A DNA stretch of 64,000 nucleotides from Blastocatellia bacterium (GTDB lineage Bacteria > Acidobacteriota > Blastocatellia > HR10 > J050), in the NCBI GenBank assembly GCA_025054955.1, contig JANWZE010000025.1:62001-126000 (forward strand), read 5' to 3'. Made by a program: the position numbers and the translations under genes. Under the pieces are notes generated by a model, which did not search any database, was not told the origin of the DNA, and saw only the letters and a program-made list of their open reading frames with translations. Positions 3,814-62,597 of the stretch are shown here, in pieces (the stretch's first letter is position 1; each line of letters starts with the position of its first letter).

Positions 3814-6186
3814 ATGTCAAGCGGCAAGCAAGTTCTCATCTTCGCCATCCTTCTGATATTCGCTGTCTCGCTCTGCTATGGTCAGGCCGGCGTGTTGTTG
3901 GGCCGCCGCGGTAATCTACCGACGTGGGAAAACTTTCTCTCGCTTGACGAGATGACGCTTGACATCAACATCAACAATCAATTTGCCACTGTGCGACTAC
4001 GTCAAATCTTCGCCAATCCGGTCGGCGATGTCACAGAAGGGCGATACGTCTTTGCTTTGCCTGCCTCGGCCAGTATCTCTGAGTTTGCCGTGTGGGACGG
4101 CCAAACGCGCATCCCCGGCGTCATGTTGGAGAAACGACAGGCACAAGACCTGTATGAATCGCTTCGGCAGCAAGCGATTGATCCAGGACTCGCGCAACAC
4201 GAAACAGACGACACGGCTGCTGCCGCGTTCACCGTCAAGGTCGTGCCCATTCCGGCATACGGCTACAAGCGTCTGGAAATGGCCTACACACAGACCTTGC
4301 CGGTTGATGGATTACAATCGCGATTTTCATTTCCGCTGCGGCCATCTGAGTATGGGCGACAACGCGCCCGGCATGTGCGCATCAATCTGACGCTGCGTAG
4401 TCAAGCGCCGATCATGGAGTTTCGTCAAGAAGGAACTCAACTAGCCCTCACGATGGAGCGACAAACAGCCAATGAAGTGGTAGCGCGCGTTGAAGCTGAA
4501 GAGATTGAGTTCGCCGAAGACTTTGCCTTTGTCTACTCATTGGGCGTGGCTTCGAGCCAGTTGGACGTCTTGACGCATCGCGCGCCGGAGCGTGTCCGTC
4601 CGTGGGAGATTCGCGATCCAGCATCAGCGCAGGCTGAGCCCGATGGGTACTTCCAGGCCATCACCACGTTTAATCAGGCGCGCATCACGGCCGGCCAGCC
4701 GGTGACGCCGCCGCCACGATCACTCGTCTTGATGTTGGACACCTCGCTATCCATGCAGTGGGAGAAACTGGAGCGAGCTTACGAGGCGCTGGAGTATTTT
4801 TTGCAAGGGCTGACGCCTCAAGACAGATTCAACCTGATTTTGTTTAATGATGATGTCCAACGACTCAGTGACAAGCCGCTCGGCGCCGATGCTGCTTCAA
4901 TCGAACGGGCGCTGACGATGGTGCGGCAAAGTTACCTCTCTGGTGGCACCAATCTGCTGGCTGCGCTCGACGCAGCGATGGCGGCGGCCAACCAGTTCGA
5001 TCGTCGGCCCGTCTCGCTCGTGATGATTACGGACGGGTTTCCCACCCTGGGAACGACGTCGGCTCGACGCATTGTTCAACATGTGACGCAAAAACAAGCT
5101 GGCTCTGTCCGTCTATACATTTTTGCGATTGGCACTGATGTCAATGCCGTGCTCTTACAGGAACTGGCCCGCCAGAGTCGCGGCCACTACGAGTCGGCGC
5201 GTCCAACCGATGACATTCGTTTTTCGCTTCGTCAGTTTTGGAGCAAGGTCGGCGCTGAACCGATTACTGACTTGACGCTGAAATCCAGTGAGAAGGATAG
5301 CCTGCACTCGGTCTACCCTGACATCAATCGCATGGCTTATGATCAAACGCAGTTTGCTTTCATCGGTCGTTATCGCCGGCCGCGTCGGAACGTTGATCTG
5401 ACGGTTGAGGGCCAGCATGGACCGGGCAAGGTGAAATTGGTCAGAAAAGTTGATCTGCCCGAACAGCAAACAGCCAATGAACATTTGCCGCGACTCTGGG
5501 CCCGAGCGCGCGTTGATGCGTTACTGCGAGAGATCGAACTGGAAGGAGAATCGGCGGAGCGGATTGAGGAAATCATTCGACTCTCACGGCGATTCAATTT
5601 CGTCACGCCGTACACGGCGTTCTTGGCAGCGCCGCGCGCGTTGCTCCGACCGCGGGTCATTCGACCTGGTGATCCGGTGTTGCGCGTGCGCACAGACCCT
5701 TCGATTCGGTCGGTAGTGGCTGTCTTTCCCTTTGGCTTGGTCAAAACCTTGACCTACCTGCCGGACGAAGACGTTTGGCAGACGCGGTTCCTCGCGCCGA
5801 CGACGATGGACGATGGTCAATACCCATGTCGCCTCCTGCTGACCGACGCGCACGGGCGCACCTATGAAGAAATAAAATCATTCATCATTGACAGTCGCCC
5901 GCCCACACTGCGCGCTCGACTCAGCGCTGACACGGCACGAGCTGGGGATGAACTGACCGTCACCGTAGACGCCGACCGCGACACGCGACGGATCATGGTG
6001 CGCCTTTACGGGGCGCAGCCTGTGCCGGCGCTGTGGGACGCGCAGGCCAAAGCCTCCATCGCGCGATTGCGCATCCCCTCTGACCTGCCTTCAGGAAACT
6101 ACACGATGACCATCCTGGCCGAAGATTTTGCTCACAATAATTCGAGCCTCACGCTCGAACTGGACATCATTGGAGGCGCCCCGTGA
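3814..6186 (+). CDS. Secreted VIT and vWA domain protein
   Basis: The 790-residue product has a signal peptide (residues 1-24, ending near CYGQA). A VIT domain (about 30-170) follows, recognisable by alternating strands and the F-A-N-P-V-G-D-V-T-E-G-R-Y segment. A von Willebrand A domain (about 300-475) has the MIDAS motif D309-T-S-L-S, the GGTNL threonine and an ITDG motif. The C-terminal ~200 residues look like one or two beta-sandwich domains. The pair VIT+vWA is typical of inter-alpha-trypsin-inhibitor-heavy-chain-like proteins, which bind metal ions and partner proteins at surfaces. No LPXTG-type sorting signal or terminal anchor is visible. GGGAGA upstream serves as a ribosome-binding site for ATG 3814. 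Its stop overlaps the start of the giant TPR gene by 4 nt, so the two are probably made together and may interact. Confidence 0.87.
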   Translation: MSSGKQVLIFAILLIFAVSLCYGQAGVLLGRRGNLPTWENFLSLDEMTLDININNQFATVRLRQIFANPVGDVTEGRYVFALPASASISEFAVWDGQTRIPGVMLEKRQAQDLYESLRQQAIDPGLAQHETDDTAAAAFTVKVVPIPAYGYKRLEMAYTQTLPVDGLQSRFSFPLRPSEYGRQRARHVRINLTLRSQAPIMEFRQEGTQLALTMERQTANEVVARVEAEEIEFAEDFAFVYSLGVASSQLDVLTHRAPERVRPWEIRDPASAQAEPDGYFQAITTFNQARITAGQPVTPPPRSLVLMLDTSLSMQWEKLERAYEALEYFLQGLTPQDRFNLILFNDDVQRLSDKPLGADAASIERALTMVRQSYLSGGTNLLAALDAAMAAANQFDRRPVSLVMITDGFPTLGTTSARRIVQHVTQKQAGSVRLYIFAIGTDVNAVLLQELARQSRGHYESARPTDDIRFSLRQFWSKVGAEPITDLTLKSSEKDSLHSVYPDINRMAYDQTQFAFIGRYRRPRRNVDLTVEGQHGPGKVKLVRKVDLPEQQTANEHLPRLWARARVDALLREIELEGESAERIEEIIRLSRRFNFVTPYTAFLAAPRALLRPRVIRPGDPVLRVRTDPSIRSVVAVFPFGLVKTLTYLPDEDVWQTRFLAPTTMDDGQYPCRLLLTDAHGRTYEEIKSFIIDSRPPTLRARLSADTARAGDELTVTVDADRDTRRIMVRLYGAQPVPALWDAQAKASIARLRIPSDLPSGNYTMTILAEDFAHNNSSLTLELDIIGGAP

Positions 6187-9100
6187 GGAACCCCCTCGCC
6201 TACCTCTTCTGGTTTGCGGTCGCCACGGCCATGCTGTTGGCGTGGTCTGTGACGCTTTCCTCAAAGACAGCGGCGCGACGGGTCATCGGTTCCGGCTCGT
6301 CGCCAACCTCCCCACAATCAGCTCCCGCGCGGATTGTGCCGCAGCAGCCGCCCGATCCAAACCGCGCGCCGCAATCAGACATAGATCAGGCGCTGTTGTC
6401 AACCGAAGAATTTTTTGGCAGCCAGGCCCTCATCGAACGACCGACGCAGCAAGCGCGTGAGCGCCTGACACACCTGATGCGATCATATCCGCGCGATGCC
6501 CAACTCCGGCTCATCGCCGCCAAGCTGGATGTGCGACTTGGAGAGACTGAGCGCGCCAACGAACAGATGCGCCAATTTGTCGAATTAGAAAATCGCCAGC
6601 CAAGCGCCTTAAGAACACTGGCCATTTACCAGCATTCGCAAGCGCAATTTGCCAACGAGATTGCGACCTTGATGGAGCTGGCAAGAAAATCGCCACGCCA
6701 TCATCATCGTGATATTTTCGATCAGATCATCTCTGTGATTCGCACGCATCGCCCGGCCGGCATTGATCTGGACCGAACCTATCGCGCGATGTTTGAATTG
6801 AACCCGCTGGAGCTCGCGCCGATTGTCAGTTATGTGCAGGAGCTGTCGGCGCAGCGTCGCTATGAACAAGCGCTGGCGGTGATTGCTGAATTTCGCTCGC
6901 GATTTGCTGACCGGCCACATCTGTTGCTTAACGAAGAAGCGGCCATTTATTTACGACAGAACCGCATTGATCAGGCCGTCGCCGTCTATGACCGACTGTT
7001 TAAGCCGCTCTGGGAGCCATCGCTCAGCTCAGCCTATTACAAGCTGCTGAAGCGCGTGGGCCGTTATCGTAGCTATCGTCGCTATTGGCGCGAGCGTTAT
7101 GAAGCCGGCTCAGCCGATGTGCAAACGCTTGCCCGCTTGTTCGATCTATACGTCTGGGAAGGCAATGCTGCCGAGGCCAATCGTGTGCTGGCTCGCTACG
7201 AAGACGTGGCCGACCGAGACAGAACAACGCCGCCCGCCCGCGAGCTGGAGACGCTAGCCGCTCTGTACGCGCGCATTGGCAACTACGATCAAGCCTCGCG
7301 TTATTACTACACGCTGCACCTGATGGGCGTCTTCCAAACCAATTCGCCGCTGCGCGAGTCAGGCTTGTACCAGTTATTCAATGCGCTCATGCAAGCTCAG
7401 GATCAACCGACACGGGTGGCAGCCGGTGATCTCTCGCTCTACAAGGACGTGGCCACCGTTGATCAACACCCTGGACTGCTGAACGGTGTGTTGTCGCTGA
7501 TTTTGGCTGATACAGCCATCCCTGAAGAGTTTCGTGAACGAGAAGCGCGCGCTGCGCGACTCTTCAACGGGTTGCTGGCCTATCGTATCTTCCAAGCATT
7601 CAAGAACGAGTTCCCCCAATCCGAGCGCCTGCCATCCATGTATGCCAGCTTGATTGACACAGTCGCTCAGCTCAAACGGTTCGAGTTGGCGATCAACATG
7701 GGAGAGGAATTTCTAGCCCGCTTTAGCGATTCAGACCAATACGAAACGATCAGCCTGAAAATCGCCGATGCGTATCGCAGCCTCAATGACCGGCATAAGG
7801 AGCGGCTCATTTACCGGCGCTTGCTTGATCGGCTCGCGGCCCGACGACTGCCCGGCCAACCCTTGATGCCGGTGGCGATGGAGCCGTGGACGTATGTCCT
7901 CTCACCACGGTGGGCGGCTTCGGGCGCCACTGCCACACACGCGAATTTCTATAGACCGATAGACGAACCAAATTCCTATCAAGAAGACAGGCCCTCTCCA
8001 CCACCGGTTTCCTACCAATCGGTGCTGGAGCGATTGCTAGCCAGCTTGGCCCAGACCAATGAACGAGAGGCTATATTGCAAATCTATTGGCAGGAAATAC
8101 GCAAATACCCGCATGAAGAAGGCCTCTATGAGGCGTTGTTGCGTTGGCTTGAGGAGACCAATCTATTCGACGAAAAACTACAGGCCTACCAACAAGCGAT
8201 TCGTCAATTTCCCACGGCAGTCTGGTATCATCGTCTGGCGCGATGGCTCATTCGACAACAGCAGCGCGAGGCGTTCCGACAGTATTCAACCGAGCTGGTC
8301 AGCATGCTGGATGACGCCGAGCTACAACCGTATCTTGAGCAATTCATCGTGTACAGCGACAAACCTGACGCCGCCGTCAATTACGATGCTCAGCTTTACT
8401 GGCAACTCTACCGACTGGCCCATGAGCGATTTCCGCACAATTTGAGCTTTGTTCATGGCCTGCTGCGTTACTATCAACAGACAAAACAGACAAACGAGTG
8501 GCAGGCATTGGCAACGCGCTATTACTTTGCCGACCCGCAAGTCCGCGACCAATTATTGCTGTTCTGGTCGAGCAATGGCACACTGCCGGCGCGTTATCAA
8601 CAAGCGCGACATGCAGCCGCAACATCGTCCGCTTACCGCTGGTTTGGGGCTGATGCAGCCGTCTGGATGGCGCGATACGAAGAGGCGGTCGAGACGTACA
8701 GGCAACTAGCTGAAGTCTATCCGAATGATCCGCGCCACGCCGAACGTTTGGCAACACTGTTACGCTCGTTGGGCCAGACCGACCCTGAGAATCTCGTTCG
8801 GTCAGCTCGCCTCTATGAGCAGTTGGCAAAAACCTATCCGACCGATCAGGACTTTCGCACGCAGGCGGGCGAGGCGTATGCCGAGTATGGCGACATGGCT
8901 GCTGCCGGCCAACAGTGGGATGCGTTGCTGGTTGTTGAGAGCGGACGGCGCGAAACCTACTTGCAAGTCGCCAGCCTTTACTGGGACTACTTCGCCTTTG
9001 ATGGCGCGCTTGGTGCTATCCAACGGCTGCGCAGCATGTCAGGCGACGACACGGCTTACGCTTATCAGATGGCCGCCATCTACGAGAGCAAACGCGACAT

Positions 9101-49963: not shown

Positions 49964-50150
49964 GATGCTTCCGGTGTTCAACCTGTCGTGTAATTCGATT
50001 CAGCCCGCTTGTGGTTTTCAAGCTCAATGGCGAGACGATGCCAGTCTTCAACCGGTCATGTTGCCTGCTAAACGGTCATTGCGGCCCGCGAACCTGCCAT
50101 GCCGATTGTGCAGTGTAGTATGAGGTAGCCAGCAAGAGACCTCTCACCCT

Positions 50151-50256
50151 CAGCGAATCCGGAGAGATTCAAGTTGGTTGACATCTGATTATGCAGCCGT
50201 CATCAATTAGTAGTGGAACCGTCAGCGAACCCAGAGAAATTCAAGTTGGTTGACAT
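50151..50256. repeat. Tandem 34-bp repeat in the tetR promoter region
   Basis: Copies at 50151-50184 and 50223-50256 differ at three positions and share ATTCAAGTTGGTTGACAT, which includes an inverted TCAA/TTGA pair. Period is 72 bp. The second copy ends in the -35 box of the tetR promoter. The gap 49964-50150 upstream shows nothing recognisable. Confidence 0.75.
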
Positions 50257-50279
50257 GGCGTGGTGGATTGTCGTACCAT
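50250..50279 (+). promoter_or_regulatory. Promoter of the TetR gene
   Basis: Perfect TTGACA (50250-50255), 18-bp spacer, TACCAT (50274-50279). Transcription would start near 50286, about 25 nt before GTG 50311. The -35 sits in repeat copy 2, so a protein bound to the repeats would control it. Confidence 0.55.
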
Positions 50280-50310
50280 GCTGCTCCCACAACAGCCTGG
50301 GAGGTCGGGT

Positions 50311-50925
50311 GTGGTTAATCAAGACGAATTGAGAACGGAGCGGCGCAAGCAAATTCAGTTTTTCGCCAAACAAGTCTTCTCCAGGAAGGGCTTTCACAAT
50401 ACGAGCGTGTCAGACATCATCCACGAGGCTGATATTGCACGCGGCACGTTCTATCTCTACTTTCAAAGCAAACGAGACATTTTCGATAGTCTCTTGGATG
50501 AGCTCCTCACGGAGCTGCGCCGGTGCATTAAGCCGATTGATCTTGGTCCGGGAGCGCCTGATCCATTTGATCAGCTCAAAGCTAATATCCGCCGGGTGAT
50601 CGAGCTGGTCCGTCGCGATCCACAACTGATTCAGATTTTGCTGCATCACGCTGCCGGCTTGGATCAAAAATCAGCCGAGATCGTGCGAAACTTTTATGCC
50701 AAGGTGTTGGAGTTGATCGAGCGATCATTACAACAGGGGATTCGGCTGGGATTAGTGCGACCCTGTGATACCCGGATTGTGGCCTCTTGCATTCTAGGAA
50801 CAATTAAGGAAGTGGCTGACGATTTGACTTCGCAGACGTGGGACGTCAGCTCACATGAGCGGTTGGTTGAGGAGATCATTGATTTTGGTCTACGCGGTGT
50901 GCTGGCTCGACCGTTGAGCCAATAA
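50311..50925 (+). CDS. TetR-family transcriptional regulator
   Basis: The 204-residue product has a TetR DNA-binding domain at about residues 9-55: F-S-R-K-G-F-H-N-T-S-V-S-D-I then A-D-I-A-R-G-T-F-Y-L-Y-F, and a helical C-terminal ligand domain. GGGAGG six nt upstream selects GTG 50311 over the ATGs at 50260 and 50278. It is followed by a 24-bp perfect palindrome (50941-50964) and then the dehydratase-like operon, so it probably represses that operon in response to a small ligand such as an acyl-CoA or fatty-acid-like compound. The ligand is inferred only from the target genes. Confidence 0.93.
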   Translation: MVNQDELRTERRKQIQFFAKQVFSRKGFHNTSVSDIIHEADIARGTFYLYFQSKRDIFDSLLDELLTELRRCIKPIDLGPGAPDPFDQLKANIRRVIELVRRDPQLIQILLHHAAGLDQKSAEIVRNFYAKVLELIERSLQQGIRLGLVRPCDTRIVASCILGTIKEVADDLTSQTWDVSSHERLVEEIIDFGLRGVLARPLSQ

Positions 50926-50940
50926 TTTTTTTGTTCAGTC

Positions 50941-50964
50941 ACTAGACTGACATGTCAGTCTAGT
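50941..50964. promoter_or_regulatory. Perfect 24-bp palindrome, probable TetR operator
   Basis: The half-site ACTAGACTGACA is followed directly by its exact reverse complement. It lies 15 bp after the tetR stop and 52 bp before ATG 51017. CTGACA within it (50947-50952) could be the -35 of a promoter whose -10 is TAAATG (50969-50974), so binding would block transcription. Confidence 0.75.
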
Positions 50965-50979
50965 TGGGTAAATGCTTGG

Positions 50980-50996
50980 CTCCGGCTTGGCCGGAG
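50980..50996 (+). promoter_or_regulatory. Leader hairpin before the dehydratase-like gene
   Basis: CTCCGGC and GCCGGAG form a 7-bp stem with a 3-nt loop. It lies about 20 nt before ATG 51017 and just 5' of the GGGAGG ribosome-binding site. It could affect mRNA stability. Confidence 0.4.
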
Positions 50997-51016
50997 AACT
51001 TGAGAAGGGAGGAACT

Positions 51017-52525
51017 ATGGTGGAAACGATGGAAGCCATCCGACACTACACAGCCTATCGAACTCGGCCGCTGACGGATGAACAACGGCGGACGATTACC
51101 ATTCTTTTTGGAGGCCTCACGTGGAAACACGAACGGCTCATTCAAGGCGTGCTCCACAATTTGAACTACAATGCCGAGCCGCTTCCCAACATCACGCGCG
51201 AGGATTTGGATGCCGGTAAGGAGTTGATTGACGTGGGGGCCTGTTGTCCAACGATCTTCACGACAGGCAACTTGGTGACCTATCTGAAAAAGAAAGCGCA
51301 GGTAGAGGGCCGAGACTACGTGGCCAATAATTACGCCTTTGTAACGGCTGGGGCCTGCGGTCCATGTCGGTTCGGGCAATATCATGAATCCTACACAATG
51401 GCGCTCAATGGCCTGGGACTGCAAGATTTTCGCCTGTTCCTTCTTTCTCAGAACAAACTCGACCAGGGAGATAACGGCGGTGGGTTGAATTTCTCACTGC
51501 CCTTTTCGATGGGCGTGGTCTGGGCCATTCTCTGCGCCGACATCCTGACCGACATGGAATACCTGACACGGCCGTATGAGGTCATTCCTGGCCAAACCGA
51601 CCAGGTCATGCAGGAGAGCATCGAGTATCTTTATGAGGTCTTTCGTAACCGACCGATTCGCGGCAAAAAATGGGGCAATTTAGCCTGGCATTTGACTACT
51701 TCGTATTTCACGGAGGCGCTAAAAGAGGTCAAGAAGAAATGGGATGCCGTTGAAGTAGACCGCTTGCAGGTCAAAGCAAAGGTGAAGATCACCGGCGAAT
51801 TTTGGCTGCAAACGCACGAAGGCGACGGCAACTACAACATCAAACGGTGGCTCGAACACGAAGGCGCTGAAGTGATTCCACCGCCGGTCGCCGTCTGGTT
51901 AGATTATCTGCTGCACTCGAAATTGTTCGACTTAGAAAATCGCAAAGAGTTTGAAAAGCGTCCAGGCGTGAAGATGGCGCTGATTAAGGCTCTGGCGCGA
52001 CTGTATCGCCGAACCTATGACGGATTGCGCAAGGCGCTGAACTTTGTGCCGTATGCGCTGCCGGACCAATTTGAGCTGCGTCAGCTCGCCGACCCTTACT
52101 ACCATTACCGGTTACGTGGCGGTGAAGGTCACATGTTGGTGGGCAAGGCGCTCTATGCCTATCGTCACAAACGAGCGCACATGATCTGCGAATTGTCACC
52201 CTACTCCTGCATGCCGAACACGATGTCCATTGGAGCGATGGCCAAAGTGCTCGGCCAATATCCTGATCTGCTGTATGCGCCGATTGAAGTCAAAGGCGAC
52301 GCAGAGGTGCATGCACTCTCTCGTTGCCAGATGATCTTGACGGAAGCGAAGCAGCGGGCGCAGATGGAATTTGACGAGGTGCTCGACCGGAATAAGCTGA
52401 CCGTGGAGAAGCTGCGCGACCTTGAAGCCAAGCAACCGGCGCTCAGACGCGCCACGTTCCGGGTTCCACACTACGGGTATGCGGGCACGGCCGTCAACTA
52501 TGCGCTCTATCTGGCCACGCGGTAG
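51017..52525 (+). CDS. 2-hydroxyglutaryl-CoA-dehydratase-like (HgdB/DCCP-type) subunit
   Basis: The 502-residue product has cysteine motifs typical of the C-terminal half of large activase-related dehydratase proteins: VGACCPTIFTTGN (about residue 75), AGACGPCRFGQYH (about 112) and ELSPYSCMPN (about 395). These residues are candidate ligands of a [4Fe-4S] or double-cubane cluster. In this superfamily an ATP-driven activase supplies low-potential electrons to the subunit for demanding reductions or dehydrations. GGGAGG selects ATG 51017. The activase gene follows 85 bp downstream. In many bacteria these parts are fused in one ~1,400-residue protein; here they are separate and in a different order. 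Substrate is unknown. Confidence 0.8.
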   Translation: MVETMEAIRHYTAYRTRPLTDEQRRTITILFGGLTWKHERLIQGVLHNLNYNAEPLPNITREDLDAGKELIDVGACCPTIFTTGNLVTYLKKKAQVEGRDYVANNYAFVTAGACGPCRFGQYHESYTMALNGLGLQDFRLFLLSQNKLDQGDNGGGLNFSLPFSMGVVWAILCADILTDMEYLTRPYEVIPGQTDQVMQESIEYLYEVFRNRPIRGKKWGNLAWHLTTSYFTEALKEVKKKWDAVEVDRLQVKAKVKITGEFWLQTHEGDGNYNIKRWLEHEGAEVIPPPVAVWLDYLLHSKLFDLENRKEFEKRPGVKMALIKALARLYRRTYDGLRKALNFVPYALPDQFELRQLADPYYHYRLRGGEGHMLVGKALYAYRHKRAHMICELSPYSCMPNTMSIGAMAKVLGQYPDLLYAPIEVKGDAEVHALSRCQMILTEAKQRAQMEFDEVLDRNKLTVEKLRDLEAKQPALRRATFRVPHYGYAGTAVNYALYLATR

Positions 52526-52609
52526 CGCGAGCGAACGCGCCTTGCGTGGGCGCGCATGACATAGATGGACATGAACAGAACAGGAGTCTCTCCCATCTCA
52601 GGAGGTACT

Positions 52610-54778
52610 ATGATTTGCGGCATTGATGTTGGCAGCACCACATGCAAATACGTGCTGGCATCGTCTGAGGGTGAAATCATTGATCAAGCGTATGAGCGGC
52701 ACAACACCAAACAGGTGGAAAAGGTGTTGGAGTTTTTGACGCGATTGGAGCAGCAGCACGGCCTCACGCCGGAGCGAGATCGAGTCTTCTTCACGGGTTC
52801 CGGCTCAGGATTGATTGCCAAGCTGGTCGGCGGCAAAGTTGTTCAGGAAGTGGTCGCCGTGGCCGCCGCTGTCGAGAAGCTCCATCCTGATGTGCAGTTT
52901 GTCAGCGAGATCGGCGGCGAAGATATGAAGACGATCTTCTTCACCGGCTCGAACGGGACGAAGAATAAGCAAGTGCTTATGCAAAGCGCATGCTCAGGCG
53001 GCACGGGAACGTTCATTGAGAAGACGGCGCGCAAGCTCCAGATTCCACCGGAGCAGCTCTCGCAGATGACATACGAAGGGCGCACGCTGCACAAAATCAG
53101 CAGCAAGTGCGGCATCTTCGCTGAAGCCGACGCCAACACGTTGTTGAAAGCGGGCGTCTCCATTGAAGAGATCATTGCGTCGTTGTTTGAGGCTGTGGTT
53201 TATCAAAACCTGGCGACCTTAACCAAGGGCAACACGCCGTTGCCGGAAGTCTTGCTGCTGGGTGGACCGAATCTTTTCTTCCGTGGCTTACAGGAAGCAT
53301 GGCGGCATCACCTCAGCAAACTCTGGCAAGAGAGAAAAGTGGCGCTGCCTGCCGGCAAGGACCCGGCCGAGTTGATCCAAGTTCCTACCAATGCGCTCTA
53401 CTACGCTGCGCTCGGCTGCATCGAAGCAGGACGCGGAGAGCCGGAGCGCGTCGGTCGTTATGCCGGCACTGAGCGATTGAAATGGTGGATCGAAGAGGGT
53501 CAACACGAAGAGAAGCAGAAGGAAGGGAAACGCGGATTGTGGCGTGAGCCGGAGGAATTGCACGCCTTCAAAGCGATCTATGGCCGTCCCAATGGTCGGA
53601 CACACTCTGAGCCGGCGGTCAACGTAGAGTTGACTCAGGTCGTCGTCGGGTGTGACTTCGGTTCAACCACGGCTAAGGCCGTCTGTCTCTCGCCGCAGAA
53701 GGAACTGGTCTTTTCCTGCTACGCGCTCAGCAAGGGAAATCCGATCGAAGACGCTCGGGCGCTCTTCCGGCAAATTCGACAGGCGCTTGGCAGCAGCGGT
53801 CAGATTCTTTCGCTCGGCATCACCGGATACGGCAAAGACCTGCTCAAAGGCATTGTCGGCGCCGATTGCGCCGTGGTCGAAACGGTGGCGCATGCGACTG
53901 CCGGACTGCACTTCTTCCCTGACGCCGATTGTATTTGCGACGTCGGCGGCGTGGATGTCAAGATCATGATTCTGAATAACGGCACTGTCGCCGATTTCCG
54001 CCTGAACTCGCAGTGTTCATCTGGCAACGGCGCATTTCTTCAAGGTGTGGCTGAGCGGTTCAATATCGAACTCGGCGAGATTGCCGACCGCGCGTTCGCG
54101 GCGCAAGCCATCCCGCAGTTGTCAATGGGCTGCGGCGTCTTCCTCCAGAGCGACATCGTCAATCAGCAGCGCAAAGGCTGGCAGGCAGAAGAAATTCTGG
54201 CTGGCTTGTGCGCCATTCTGCCGCTCAATGTGTGGATTTATGCCGGCGGGTTGAACAACCTGTCACAGATCGGCAAGAAATTCATCTTGCAAGGCGGCAG
54301 TCATAAGAATTTGGCTGTGGTCAAAGCCCAGGTGGATTTCATCAAGTCGAAGATTCCGGATGCTGAGGTAGTGGTGCACCCGTATTCGGGCGAAGCCGGC
54401 GCGATTGGCGCGGCACTGGTGGCGCTCGATTGGTGGCAGCGCGGCGGGCAGACCGGTTTCCGCGGGTTTCAGGTTATCGAGGAGTTGAGCTACGAGACCA
54501 CAACCTCGCTCGACACGGTCTGCAAATGGTGTCCCGTCTCTTGCCAGCGTACCTTCATTGATGTTCGGCTTCCCGGCGGCAAAGGCCGACCCTGGAGCAA
54601 AGTGCCGCTAGCCGAAGGATGGGAACGCGTGATCGTCAATAACTCTTGTCCCAAAGGACTGGTGGAAGATGCCAACGAAATGCGGGTGATTAAAGCCGAG
54701 ATGGAGAAGACTAAACATGCCTTTCCCAACATTGCGGACATGGTTCGGGCCCAAGCCTTCCACCGCTTTGCCGGCTAA
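52610..54778 (+). CDS. Double-domain BcrAD/BadFG-type activase (ASKHA ATPase)
   Basis: The 722-residue product carries two ASKHA ATPase domains. The first starts GIDVGSTTCKYV (residue 4) and has the two bridging cysteines in SACSGGTGTF and SSKCGIFAEAD; the second starts GCDFGSTTAKAV (about residue 347) with SQCSSGNGAF and SMGCGVFLQSD. Such cysteine pairs hold a [4Fe-4S] cluster between domains, and ATP hydrolysis drives a single electron into the partner dehydratase. A C-terminal C-K-W-C-P-V-S-C segment may bind another cluster. AGGAGG selects ATG 52610. The last 62 bp overlap the next gene in another frame. Confidence 0.9.
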   Translation: MICGIDVGSTTCKYVLASSEGEIIDQAYERHNTKQVEKVLEFLTRLEQQHGLTPERDRVFFTGSGSGLIAKLVGGKVVQEVVAVAAAVEKLHPDVQFVSEIGGEDMKTIFFTGSNGTKNKQVLMQSACSGGTGTFIEKTARKLQIPPEQLSQMTYEGRTLHKISSKCGIFAEADANTLLKAGVSIEEIIASLFEAVVYQNLATLTKGNTPLPEVLLLGGPNLFFRGLQEAWRHHLSKLWQERKVALPAGKDPAELIQVPTNALYYAALGCIEAGRGEPERVGRYAGTERLKWWIEEGQHEEKQKEGKRGLWREPEELHAFKAIYGRPNGRTHSEPAVNVELTQVVVGCDFGSTTAKAVCLSPQKELVFSCYALSKGNPIEDARALFRQIRQALGSSGQILSLGITGYGKDLLKGIVGADCAVVETVAHATAGLHFFPDADCICDVGGVDVKIMILNNGTVADFRLNSQCSSGNGAFLQGVAERFNIELGEIADRAFAAQAIPQLSMGCGVFLQSDIVNQQRKGWQAEEILAGLCAILPLNVWIYAGGLNNLSQIGKKFILQGGSHKNLAVVKAQVDFIKSKIPDAEVVVHPYSGEAGAIGAALVALDWWQRGGQTGFRGFQVIEELSYETTTSLDTVCKWCPVSCQRTFIDVRLPGGKGRPWSKVPLAEGWERVIVNNSCPKGLVEDANEMRVIKAEMEKTKHAFPNIADMVRAQAFHRFAG

Positions 54779-55901
54779 GACGAAGGATCGTTCAGGTCTT
54801 CGCGTCGGCATTCCCAAGGTCCTGAACATCTGGAGCACGCATCAATTCTGGATCGGATTTTTGAAGGCGTTGGGCATTCCTGGCGAGAATATCGTCTTCA
54901 GCTCCGATACCTCGGAAGAGCAATTCCGCGAATTTGGCAAAGGCCGCGGCACGGTGGATTGCTGCTATCCGGTCAAGTGCATGAGCGGGCACTACGGTGA
55001 ATTGATCTTCGGTCAAAAGAAGAAAATCAACGTGCTCCTGAGTCCGATGATCTACACATTGCCGTCGTTTCTTCGTGGGCATGTGCTCGACACGGCTACT
55101 TGCACCCGCGTCATGGCAGGACCGGAAAACATCCGCGCCGGCTTTCAAAAAGAGCGGGACGTCTTCGCTGAAAACGACATCATCTATGCCTCTCCGTTCG
55201 TGAGCATGGGCGATCCGCAGATGGTGCCCAAAGAGCTGTATGAATCGCTCAAAGATGTATTCGATCTCGACTTCGAGGAAACACGCCGAGCTGTGGAAGC
55301 CGGATATGAGGCGCTAGAAAATTTCAATCGTCGAATGCGCGCCAAAAGCCGAGAAATTCTCACCTGGTGCGCGCGCAACCAGAAGCCCTGCATCTTGATC
55401 TTAGCGCGTCCTTATCACATGGACCCTGGCATTGGCCATGAGATTGAAGTGAACCTGCAAACACATGGCTACCCGATTCTGTGGATGCAGTACTTCCCGA
55501 TTGATGATGACCTGATGAACTGGTTATTCGGTCCCGACCTCCGCGCTGGTCGCATCCGCAGTCCCTTTGATATTTCCGATGTGTGGGATTCTTCCTACAG
55601 CAGCAACACAAACGAAATCCTATGGGGCGCCAAAGTCGCCGCTCGATGTCCGTGGATCACGTGCGTGATTCGGTTCTCCAGCTATGAGTGCGGCATGGAT
55701 CAGCCGACCTACACGCCGACTCAGAAGATTGTCGAGGCGTCCCGCACGCTCTTCTTCAAGTTCGGCGATCTGGACGCTACCAAGCCCGCCGGCAGCGTCA
55801 ACATTCGTGTGGAAACCATCGTCCATTACGTTGAGAAGTATTCTCAGGAGATCATTCAAAGAAAGTTGGCCTGGCTGCCCGAGCCATGTCCATTGTTGTG
55901 A
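54717..55901 (+). CDS. DUF2229-type dehydratase-related subunit
   Basis: The 394-residue product matches the DUF2229 region of activase-related proteins: GLRVGIPKVLNIW (about residues 27-39), D-C-C-Y-P-V-K-C, Y-T-L-P-S-F-L, ILARPYHMDPGIGHE and a final RVETIVHY. Cysteines near residues 82-87 may bind an Fe-S cluster. It starts inside the activase gene, 62 bp before that gene's stop, with GGAGAAG upstream, so translation is coupled. The first ~25 residues are encoded in the overlap and look unlike the family. A programmed frameshift giving an activase fusion is possible but there is no slippery sequence I can point to. Confidence 0.82.
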   Translation: MPFPTLRTWFGPKPSTALPAKTKDRSGLRVGIPKVLNIWSTHQFWIGFLKALGIPGENIVFSSDTSEEQFREFGKGRGTVDCCYPVKCMSGHYGELIFGQKKKINVLLSPMIYTLPSFLRGHVLDTATCTRVMAGPENIRAGFQKERDVFAENDIIYASPFVSMGDPQMVPKELYESLKDVFDLDFEETRRAVEAGYEALENFNRRMRAKSREILTWCARNQKPCILILARPYHMDPGIGHEIEVNLQTHGYPILWMQYFPIDDDLMNWLFGPDLRAGRIRSPFDISDVWDSSYSSNTNEILWGAKVAARCPWITCVIRFSSYECGMDQPTYTPTQKIVEASRTLFFKFGDLDATKPAGSVNIRVETIVHYVEKYSQEIIQRKLAWLPEPCPLL

Positions 55902-61766: not shown

Positions 61767-62597
61767 CTATGGTCGGAGAACCGCCGCCATCGCTTGGATT
61801 GGACCTGAGGCGCCGATCCGACCAATGGCGGTGGCTTGACCGGTTGTCAGATTGACCGAAAACAACGTGCTGACAGTCTCACCCGGAAGCACGGCGCTCA
61901 GGTAGGCTGCATTGTCCGCGCCCACGATGTCGAAGCTTGTCTGCGCATTGACATCAATGCCAAGCGAGCCGACAACATTGAGCACACCATCATTGGGTGG
62001 ATTCTGAATGACTAACGCGTCGCGCAGCGAATCAATGTTGTAGAGCGTTGTGCCGGGCATCTGTCGCGGCGATGGCCCGAAGTTGTTGGTGTAGGCCGAA
62101 GCCACAATGTGAACCTTACCCCCAGCCACGTAATTCAAGCGGCCATCTATGGCCACCAAAGCACCGTTGTTGGGATTAAGCCGCAGATTCGCGTCATTAT
62201 CCGTGGTCATGCGAATTCGGTCAGGCAATGGATTGAAGTCAAATCCGAAGGAGTCTCCATCCAACGGCGTGCTGCTCGGGCTGCCCACGGGAGTCGCGCG
62301 GCCGTCTTCGGTTGAGATGACGTAAATCGTTGGTATCGCGCCATCCGTGATGCCGTATAGCTTGCCATCGGCGGGACGAAAATCAATGCCAACAAAGGGC
62401 AGCGTCGGGCCGACCATGACAACCTCACCGGGGTTGCCGGAACTAAAGCGAATGAGGTTGTTGTTACTGTCAATGGCGTACAACGTATCGCTGCCACTGG
62501 TGGCTTTGCTGATAAGAGGCGTCAAGCAGATCACGCTCAGTACCAACGCCAGAAGTGCCTTCCGGGTGCACAAGAGTAATCCTCTAGTGTTGTTCAT
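61767..62597 (-). CDS. DUF4394 secreted protein
   Basis: The 276-residue product has a signal peptide (about residues 10-32) and the DUF4394 pattern: TLYAIDSNNNLIRF, GIDFRPADGKLYGIT, DGDSFGFDFNPLPDRIRM and DNDANLRLNPNNG. The repeats suggest a beta-propeller-like fold. Secreted members have no known function. TAGGAGGAAAG precedes the ATG. Confidence 0.9.
   Translation of the reverse strand: MNNTRGLLLCTRKALLALVLSVICLTPLISKATSGSDTLYAIDSNNNLIRFSSGNPGEVVMVGPTLPFVGIDFRPADGKLYGITDGAIPTIYVISTEDGRATPVGSPSSTPLDGDSFGFDFNPLPDRIRMTTDNDANLRLNPNNGALVAIDGRLNYVAGGKVHIVASAYTNNFGPSPRQMPGTTLYNIDSLRDALVIQNPPNDGVLNVVGSLGIDVNAQTSFDIVGADNAAYLSAVLPGETVSTLFSVNLTTGQATAIGRIGASGPIQAMAAVLRP

Follow-up and report, generated by a model that had tools for sequence, protein, structure and literature searches.

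The plasmalogen synthase PlsA and the glycerol ester reductase Ger turn glycerol esters into vinyl or alkyl ethers (PMC13274423; PMC8788747). Ger proteins carry two activase domains (PMC13274423), and in Enterococcus faecalis a TetR gene is located directly upstream of pls (PMC9702350). The recognised routes to ether lipids besides the elb genes run through Ger and PlsA, which are indistinguishable by sequence (PMC13274423, PMC11868695). Acidobacterial homologues of the tetraether lipid synthase Tes have been proposed to act in the synthesis of branched glycerol dialkyl glycerol tetraethers (brGDGTs) (PMC8941075; PMC10087280). These bacterial tetraether lipids are widely used temperature and pH proxies, while the formation of their ether bonds is only partly known. 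The present analysis concerns a stretch of 64,000 nucleotides (the window; positions 62,001 to 126,000 of contig JANWZE010000025.1) from the Blastocatellia bacterium genome GCA_025054955.1 (Acidobacteriota). Between positions 50311 and 55901 it harbours four intact genes, all on the plus strand: tetR, B, A and D. The original prediction had described them as a TetR gene followed by genes for an HgdB-like protein, a double-ASKHA activase and a DUF2229 protein, an assignment borne out by open reading frames (ORFs), Pfam, hhalign and structural models.

On balance, B-A-D is best read as a PlsA/Ger-like, ATP-driven iron-sulfur (Fe-S) reductase converting membrane-lipid esters to ethers, a reading held at somewhat better than even confidence. 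The ester-to-ether chemistry of PlsA/Ger, together with the TetR gene upstream of pls, makes PlsA-like chemistry on membrane lipids the best supported proposal. More tentatively, and at less than even confidence, the operon may stand for a hitherto overlooked second lineage of enzymes that turn glycerol esters into ethers at the expense of ATP. Such a clade, found in at least 14 phyla and equipped with its own TetR and operator, would furnish the ether bonds of Tes-coupled, membrane-spanning (brGDGT-like) lipids in bacteria that have no assigned ether-forming enzyme.

Subunits of the predicted reductase

Protein A matches PF01869 in two stretches (E=5e-75), i.e. it is a double ASKHA protein according to Pfam. 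Its closest activases in PDB are HgdC (structure 1hux, E=8e-27) and MbdQ, and it shares 29-35% identity with activases from named plasmid records. Alignment of 30 homologues revealed an invariant cysteine pair in either ASKHA unit (C143/C182 and C484/C523, numbered from 52565) and an added C-terminal CxxCxxxC...C motif at residues 653, 656, 660 and 695. DUF2229 (PF09989, E=9e-41) is the sole Pfam family matched by D, in which C83, C129 and C325 are invariant among 52 homologues. Protein B (ORF 50972-52525) has no match in Pfam or NCBIfam, and none of its 57 homologues, in which C76, C117 and C398 are invariant and C114 nearly so, matches a relevant model, HGD-D (PF06050) included. The domain search advised by the original prediction thus assigned A, D and TetR via Pfam, while the HgdB-like nature of B emerged from hhalign and the structural model.

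Comparison by hhalign with PlsA-type domains (Listeria PlsA, L126, as reference) yielded E=3e-53 for B and E=7e-65 for D, with the cysteines aligned, and B, A and D each have sequence homology to domains of PlsA/Ger. B and D were modelled with AlphaFold2 (pLDDT 88 each) and the models searched with Foldseek: the predicted structure of B retrieved the double-cubane cluster protein DCCP as top match and also BzdNO and HadBC, that of D retrieved BzdNO, DCCP and HadBC. Against the hydroxyisocaproyl-CoA dehydratase fold (3o3m/3o3n), the match probability was 1.0 for D and up to 0.85 for B. High-probability matches of both were limited to structures of the benzoyl-CoA reductase/2-hydroxyacyl-CoA dehydratase (BCR/HAD) family; the TM-scores are low (0.3-0.5), so that the domains match better than their arrangement. 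Nothing informative was retrieved by PDB sequence searches with B or D profiles, nor by a literature search on DUF2229 or COG3580/3581.

An ATP-driven Fe-S electron-transfer module comprising B, A and D, as initially proposed, is well supported by these predicted features, namely the cysteine pairs of both ASKHA units and two subunits of BCR/HAD fold with three invariant cysteines each. The label "2-hydroxyglutaryl-CoA dehydratase", on the other hand, is probably too specific and wrong: PlsA/Ger are the closest proteins with experimental study, HGD-D is unmatched, and genes of an acyl-CoA pathway were seen neither around the operon in the window nor among the scanned neighbours. A canonical HgdABC system was rejected on account of the missing HGD-D match and the differing activase architecture. 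The host genome encodes one DUF2229 protein; a single-ASKHA gene elsewhere in it was set aside as N-acetylglucosamine-kinase-like.

In the proposed mechanism, A would form a built-in pseudo-dimer with a [4Fe-4S] cluster between its halves and would spend ATP to drive single low-potential electrons into a B:D heterodimer, each subunit of which would contribute three cysteine ligands. The likeliest substrate is the ester carbonyl of a glycerol membrane lipid, which the enzyme would turn into an alkyl (or alkenyl) ether by reduction, in the manner of PlsA/Ger. The products would be ether-bound lipids and, in some lineages, Tes-coupled membrane-spanning tetraethers.

Phylogeny and distribution

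A scan of GTDB species genomes confirmed 576 homologues, 80 of which were kept. The window-type clade occurs in at least 14 phyla, some members being very probably O2-respiring: Acidobacteriota, Aquificota, Ignavibacteriota, Bacteroidota, Fidelibacterota (Marinimicrobia), Planctomycetota, Myxococcota, Gemmatimonadota, Chloroflexota, Nitrospirota, Nitrospinota, Poribacteria, Zixiibacteriota, Pseudomonadota and others. Most often, B precedes a fused A-D protein of some 1200 aa, and in a few homologues all parts form one ORF. The three-gene form is restricted to one Acidobacteriota clade and one Aquificaceae metagenome-assembled genome (SKYG33, L038). The latter, with 62-69% identity to the window proteins, reflects either horizontal transfer or mis-binning.

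In the tree, constructed by a quick method, with long branches and without the Ger proteins of T. maritima and D. alkenivorans, a fully supported long-branch split separates the window type from 14 PlsA/Ger-like sequences including Listeria PlsA, and the window type falls outside the clade of the PlsA/Ger-type sequences sampled. A simple PlsA/Ger orthologue was rejected from this split and from the scores of B, which amount to 300-860 bits within its clade vs 40-97 bits for the PlsA/Ger type. The comparison with fused homologues, another step the original prediction had advised, showed the unfused three-gene and A-D-B forms as neighbouring branches at the root of the window clade, apart from the fused A-D form. 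Of the initial view that the parts are fused elsewhere and split here, the first half therefore stands; derivation by splitting is not necessary given the unfused forms at the clade base, though PlsA is fused.

Among 297 genomes of the phylum, 26 contain a close homologue of B and 26 a distant PlsA/Ger-like one. A was detected in 9 of 147 genomes of the class: in the window genome, in the other two of its family and in six more of its order; the copies within the order are about 80% identical and none was found in other orders, which argues for stable inheritance of the operon in the order. The host genome (4.69 Mb, 99.5% complete) possesses three haem-copper oxidase genes scoring above cut-off, from which the host very probably respires oxygen.

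Genomic context and the nature of the substrate

Linkage to Tes in relatives points to glycerol ether lipids. In two Planctomycetota (Phycisphaerae; L092 and L094), B and fused A-D are followed, 129-320 bp downstream of A-D, by a Tes above the full-score cut-off of 450 bits (499 and 502 bits), with a 93-aa gene in between in L092. Both remaining genomes of the window's family show the gene order Tes-like radical S-adenosylmethionine (SAM) gene (317-323 bits), second radical SAM gene, tetR, operator(s), B, A and D; a Tes-like gene is also located 1.2 kb downstream in L051. Across the 297 genomes, full-score Tes was present in 12 of the 26 with window-type B vs 22 of the 271 others (Fisher p=2e-6, uncorrected for kinship).

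The second radical SAM protein (425-460 aa, without a specific family model) is found in Acidobacteriota with both operon types: its gene adjoins B or A-D in about nine more acidobacterial loci of the fused A-D type, at 50-57% identity to the L149 copy. It is likely a partner of the reductase. In the window genome no such gene was found (best match 31%).

Several observations weigh against the lipid-ether reading. Other members of the class reportedly use elb genes for ether lipids (PMC10087280). The branch between window clade and PlsA/Ger measures about 4 changes per site, a separation deep enough that the substrate may have changed, and 8 of the 297 genomes possess both window-type and PlsA/Ger-like B. 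The co-occurrence with Tes stems mostly from one genus and is weak in genomes with the window type only (6 of 18, p=0.01). The window genome's own Tes-like gene (G000:C85:36974-38533; L155, L163), encoding a 717-aa radical SAM protein with an HMPTM zinc ribbon, is located on a different contig and, with 318 bits, falls short of the cut-off. Tes-like homologues, counted together with the few full-score Tes, occur in 171 of the 297 phylum genomes and in 133 of the 147 class genomes vs A in nine, so that presence in the own genome says little; this line of evidence was dropped, homologues of about 320 bits being near-universal in the class. As an observation of its own, this Tes-like protein is a candidate iso-diabolic-acid coupling enzyme.

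Ignavibacteria tie the system to hopanoid genes instead. Genes hpnC-hpnD-hpnE, which provide squalene for hopanoids (HpnC 314 bits, cut-off 250; HpnE 372 bits, cut-off 283), are located directly upstream of B-AD in L055, L058, L059, L076 and L083, and upstream with two further genes between in L048 (six loci in all); in addition, START-domain genes lie downstream of two Bacteroidota loci. Both contexts also count in favour of the main, membrane-lipid reading. The same module might accordingly act on an isoprenoid or hopanoid membrane lipid, or in a squalene/hopene-linked step, rather than on a glycerol ester. This is considered unlikely: no squalene/phytoene synthase was found in the window genome, so the substrate there cannot be squalene-derived, and the Tes linkage in Planctomycetota and Acidobacteriota favours glycerol ether lipids.

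A low probability is likewise given to an (R)-2-hydroxyacyl-CoA dehydratase or aryl/enoyl-CoA reductase of acid catabolism under an acyl-CoA-sensing TetR. The BCR/HAD fold of B and D, the proximity of A to HgdC and MbdQ, and the best NCBIfam match of TetR, the fatty-acid regulator FadR (67 bits, below the cut-off of 200), would agree with such an enzyme. However, the nearest family is PlsA/Ger and HGD-D is unmatched, genes for acyl-CoA ligase, CoA-transferase or beta-oxidation were found neither beside the operon in the window nor among the neighbour families listed, and many lineages carry the system as a self-contained cassette of two or three genes. An apparent cluster of conserved neighbours was discarded as antisense ORFs of the B gene.

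The top fold match of B and the radical SAM gene adjoining the operon in many Acidobacteriota would also suit a DCCP-like reductase of a small molecule or cofactor, or an activator of another metalloenzyme (e.g. the adjacent radical SAM protein), with no lipid as substrate. This, too, is improbable, since B and D are unlike subunits as opposed to the DCCP homodimer, most loci have no radical SAM neighbour, and double ASKHA plus DUF2229 is the arrangement of PlsA/Ger.

The TetR regulator and its operator

TetR was assigned by PF00440 (E=3e-14) and TetR_C_24 (E=3e-8). Under the lipid-ether reading, it would bind the perfect palindrome over the B-A-D promoter and keep the operon off until an inducer arrives, which may be a ligand of fatty-acyl type or membrane origin, or else a cue tied to low oxygen. 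The palindrome is the single such site in the 4.69-Mb genome with up to three mismatches allowed. Identical or near-identical copies stand between tetR and B in L147-L151, L153 and L037; within the order, every tetR-bearing copy has the palindrome in this position, with two copies in genomes G299 and G310. Conversely, it is absent where tetR is absent (locus L152; genome G301, with no tetR at the operon). In the remaining two genomes of the window's family (L149 and L153), the tetR-B gap contains two operators with a doubtful small ORF between them.

In all nine operator-bearing genomes (the own one and eight further), the palindrome is confined to the B-A-D operon, and a wide TetR regulon was rejected, a second operator locus occurring in none of 10 genomes. 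Scanning 1.84 Mb of loci with a weight matrix restricted other good sites to homologous operons: Poribacteria L044 and L107 display an operator-like site in the arrangement tetR-site-B, Nitrospirota L091 has a site before A-D at a contig edge, and weaker matches precede tetR-A-D-B in Aquificota L108 (18 bits) and tetR in acidobacterium L121 (24 bits). The DNA-reading region of all operator-linked TetRs shares the helix ARGTFYLYF, which is not present in two TetRs adjoining PlsA-type genes.

TetR and palindrome are therefore, on strong comparative evidence, a predicted cognate repressor/operator pair conserved across phyla, and the case for a dedicated operator is stronger than initially stated. 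The alternative that TetR has its target elsewhere and that the palindrome arose by chance or serves something unrelated is very improbable: the case for the operator does rest on sequence comparison, but tetR and palindrome are either both there or both missing across the order, the sites of nine genomes lie at this operon only, and similar sites recur at homologous tetR-linked operons of other phyla.

Locus organization

The four genes (Table 1) are preceded by rho and followed by convergent genes for a class-V aminotransferase and asparaginase II. ORFs were defined by simple rules rather than by gene-finder software. Likely starts are GTG for tetR and ATG for B and A, each with a GGAGG-like site before it, and ATG for D. 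The end of A and the start of D share 62 bp; an overlap of 62 or 68 bp recurs in each of the 13 three-gene relatives examined in the Acidobacteriota.

At the end of tetR lies a terminator-like hairpin with a T-run, suggesting separate transcripts for tetR and B-A-D. It is followed by the palindrome and, 52 bp past the palindrome's end, by the start of B, so that B-A-D is probably a transcript of its own under the palindrome. The T-run is seen in relatives too; hairpin-type sites across the region show no excess over shuffles. Upstream of tetR, a 39-bp repeat has just two matches in the window (none in shuffled sequence), and no further copy was detected in the relatives' loci examined. Position 50151, at which the original prediction begins, falls within the first copy. 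A promoter-like match TTGACA-18-TACCAT begins at 50250, a motif not more frequent than the chance count; the repeat region 50146..50256 is a possible tetR promoter region. As a side observation, a protein of about 90 aa (..DKIMFEIYKE..YRVVYFTELDEHNK..EIDRA..GEHxFDGF..) is encoded directly after A-D in three phyla; two copies were scanned, one in Pfam and one in NCBIfam, with no match.

Table 1 Features of the window locus and of related loci
Feature	Position	Strand	Basis or remarks
tetR (TetR/AcrR-family repressor, predicted; 204 aa)	50311..50925	+	PF00440; ORF open from 50260
B (HgdB-like subunit, BCR/HAD fold; 502 aa)	51017..52525	+	Homologue alignment, AlphaFold2 and Foldseek, hhalign
A (double-ASKHA activase; 722 aa)	52610..54778	+	PF01869, HgdC match; ORF open from 52565
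D (DUF2229 subunit, BCR/HAD fold; 394 aa)	54717..55901	+	PF09989, AlphaFold2 and Foldseek
Putative operator, perfect 24-bp palindrome ACTAGACTGACATGTCAGTCTAGT	50941..50964	no strand	Between tetR and B
Terminator-like hairpin, then T-run	50903..50936	+	End of tetR; 8-bp stem, loop of 3
Two 39-bp direct repeats, 90% identical, ending in GTTGACAT	50146-50184, 50218-50256	+	Upstream of tetR
Paired operators in relatives	L149:4340-4363 and 4514-4537; L153:7807-7830 and 7981-8004		About 174 bp apart
Second radical SAM gene	L149:2179-3528, L153:8801-10117, L060:8524-9822, L070:8521-9804, L075:2439-3716, L084:8049-9431, L085:11724-13016, L106:5595-6941		Between B and A-D in L085
Gene for ~90-aa protein	L044:16253-16528, L061:15229-15522, L081:16181-16453, L092:15631-15912, L107:16524-16799		Directly after A-D

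Significance and comparison with known systems

A separate clade under a regulator of its own would provide a genetic marker and a testable enzyme for ether-bond formation, and the conserved TetR/operator pair a handle for finding the inducer. Since window-type members occur in Marinisomatota, Myxococcota and Planctomycetota, some "Ger" calls in metagenomes of these phyla may belong to the window clade.

DCCP and its partner DCCP-R resemble the window system in providing the best structural match of B and in the ATP-driven activase, but the window encodes two unlike catalytic subunits, a comparison by predicted fold rather than by cluster type. Class I benzoyl-CoA reductases (BzdNOPQ, MbdONPQ) likewise combine a heterodimeric catalytic pair with two ASKHA units; in the window, in contrast, these units are fused and extended by the CxxCxxxC...C tail, and an aromatic pathway context is missing. 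The 2-hydroxyacyl-CoA dehydratases (HgdABC, HadBCI) share the catalytic fold, the three-cysteine sites and an ASKHA activator with bridging cluster; unlike their homodimeric single-ASKHA activators, that of the window is one double-ASKHA chain, and its sequences lie outside HGD-D and a CoA pathway context. From PlsA/PlsR and Ger (T. maritima Tmari_0479, D. alkenivorans), the window type differs as a separate deep clade with three ORFs in the order B-A-D (vs fused A-D-B or a plsA-plsR pair), a longer B (502 vs about 400 aa), a different TetR and operator, and a host with aerobic oxidases. With these same proteins it has in common two ASKHA units, DUF2229, an HgdB-like domain and aligned three-cysteine sites, as well as the TetR gene that adjoins pls in some facultative anaerobes.

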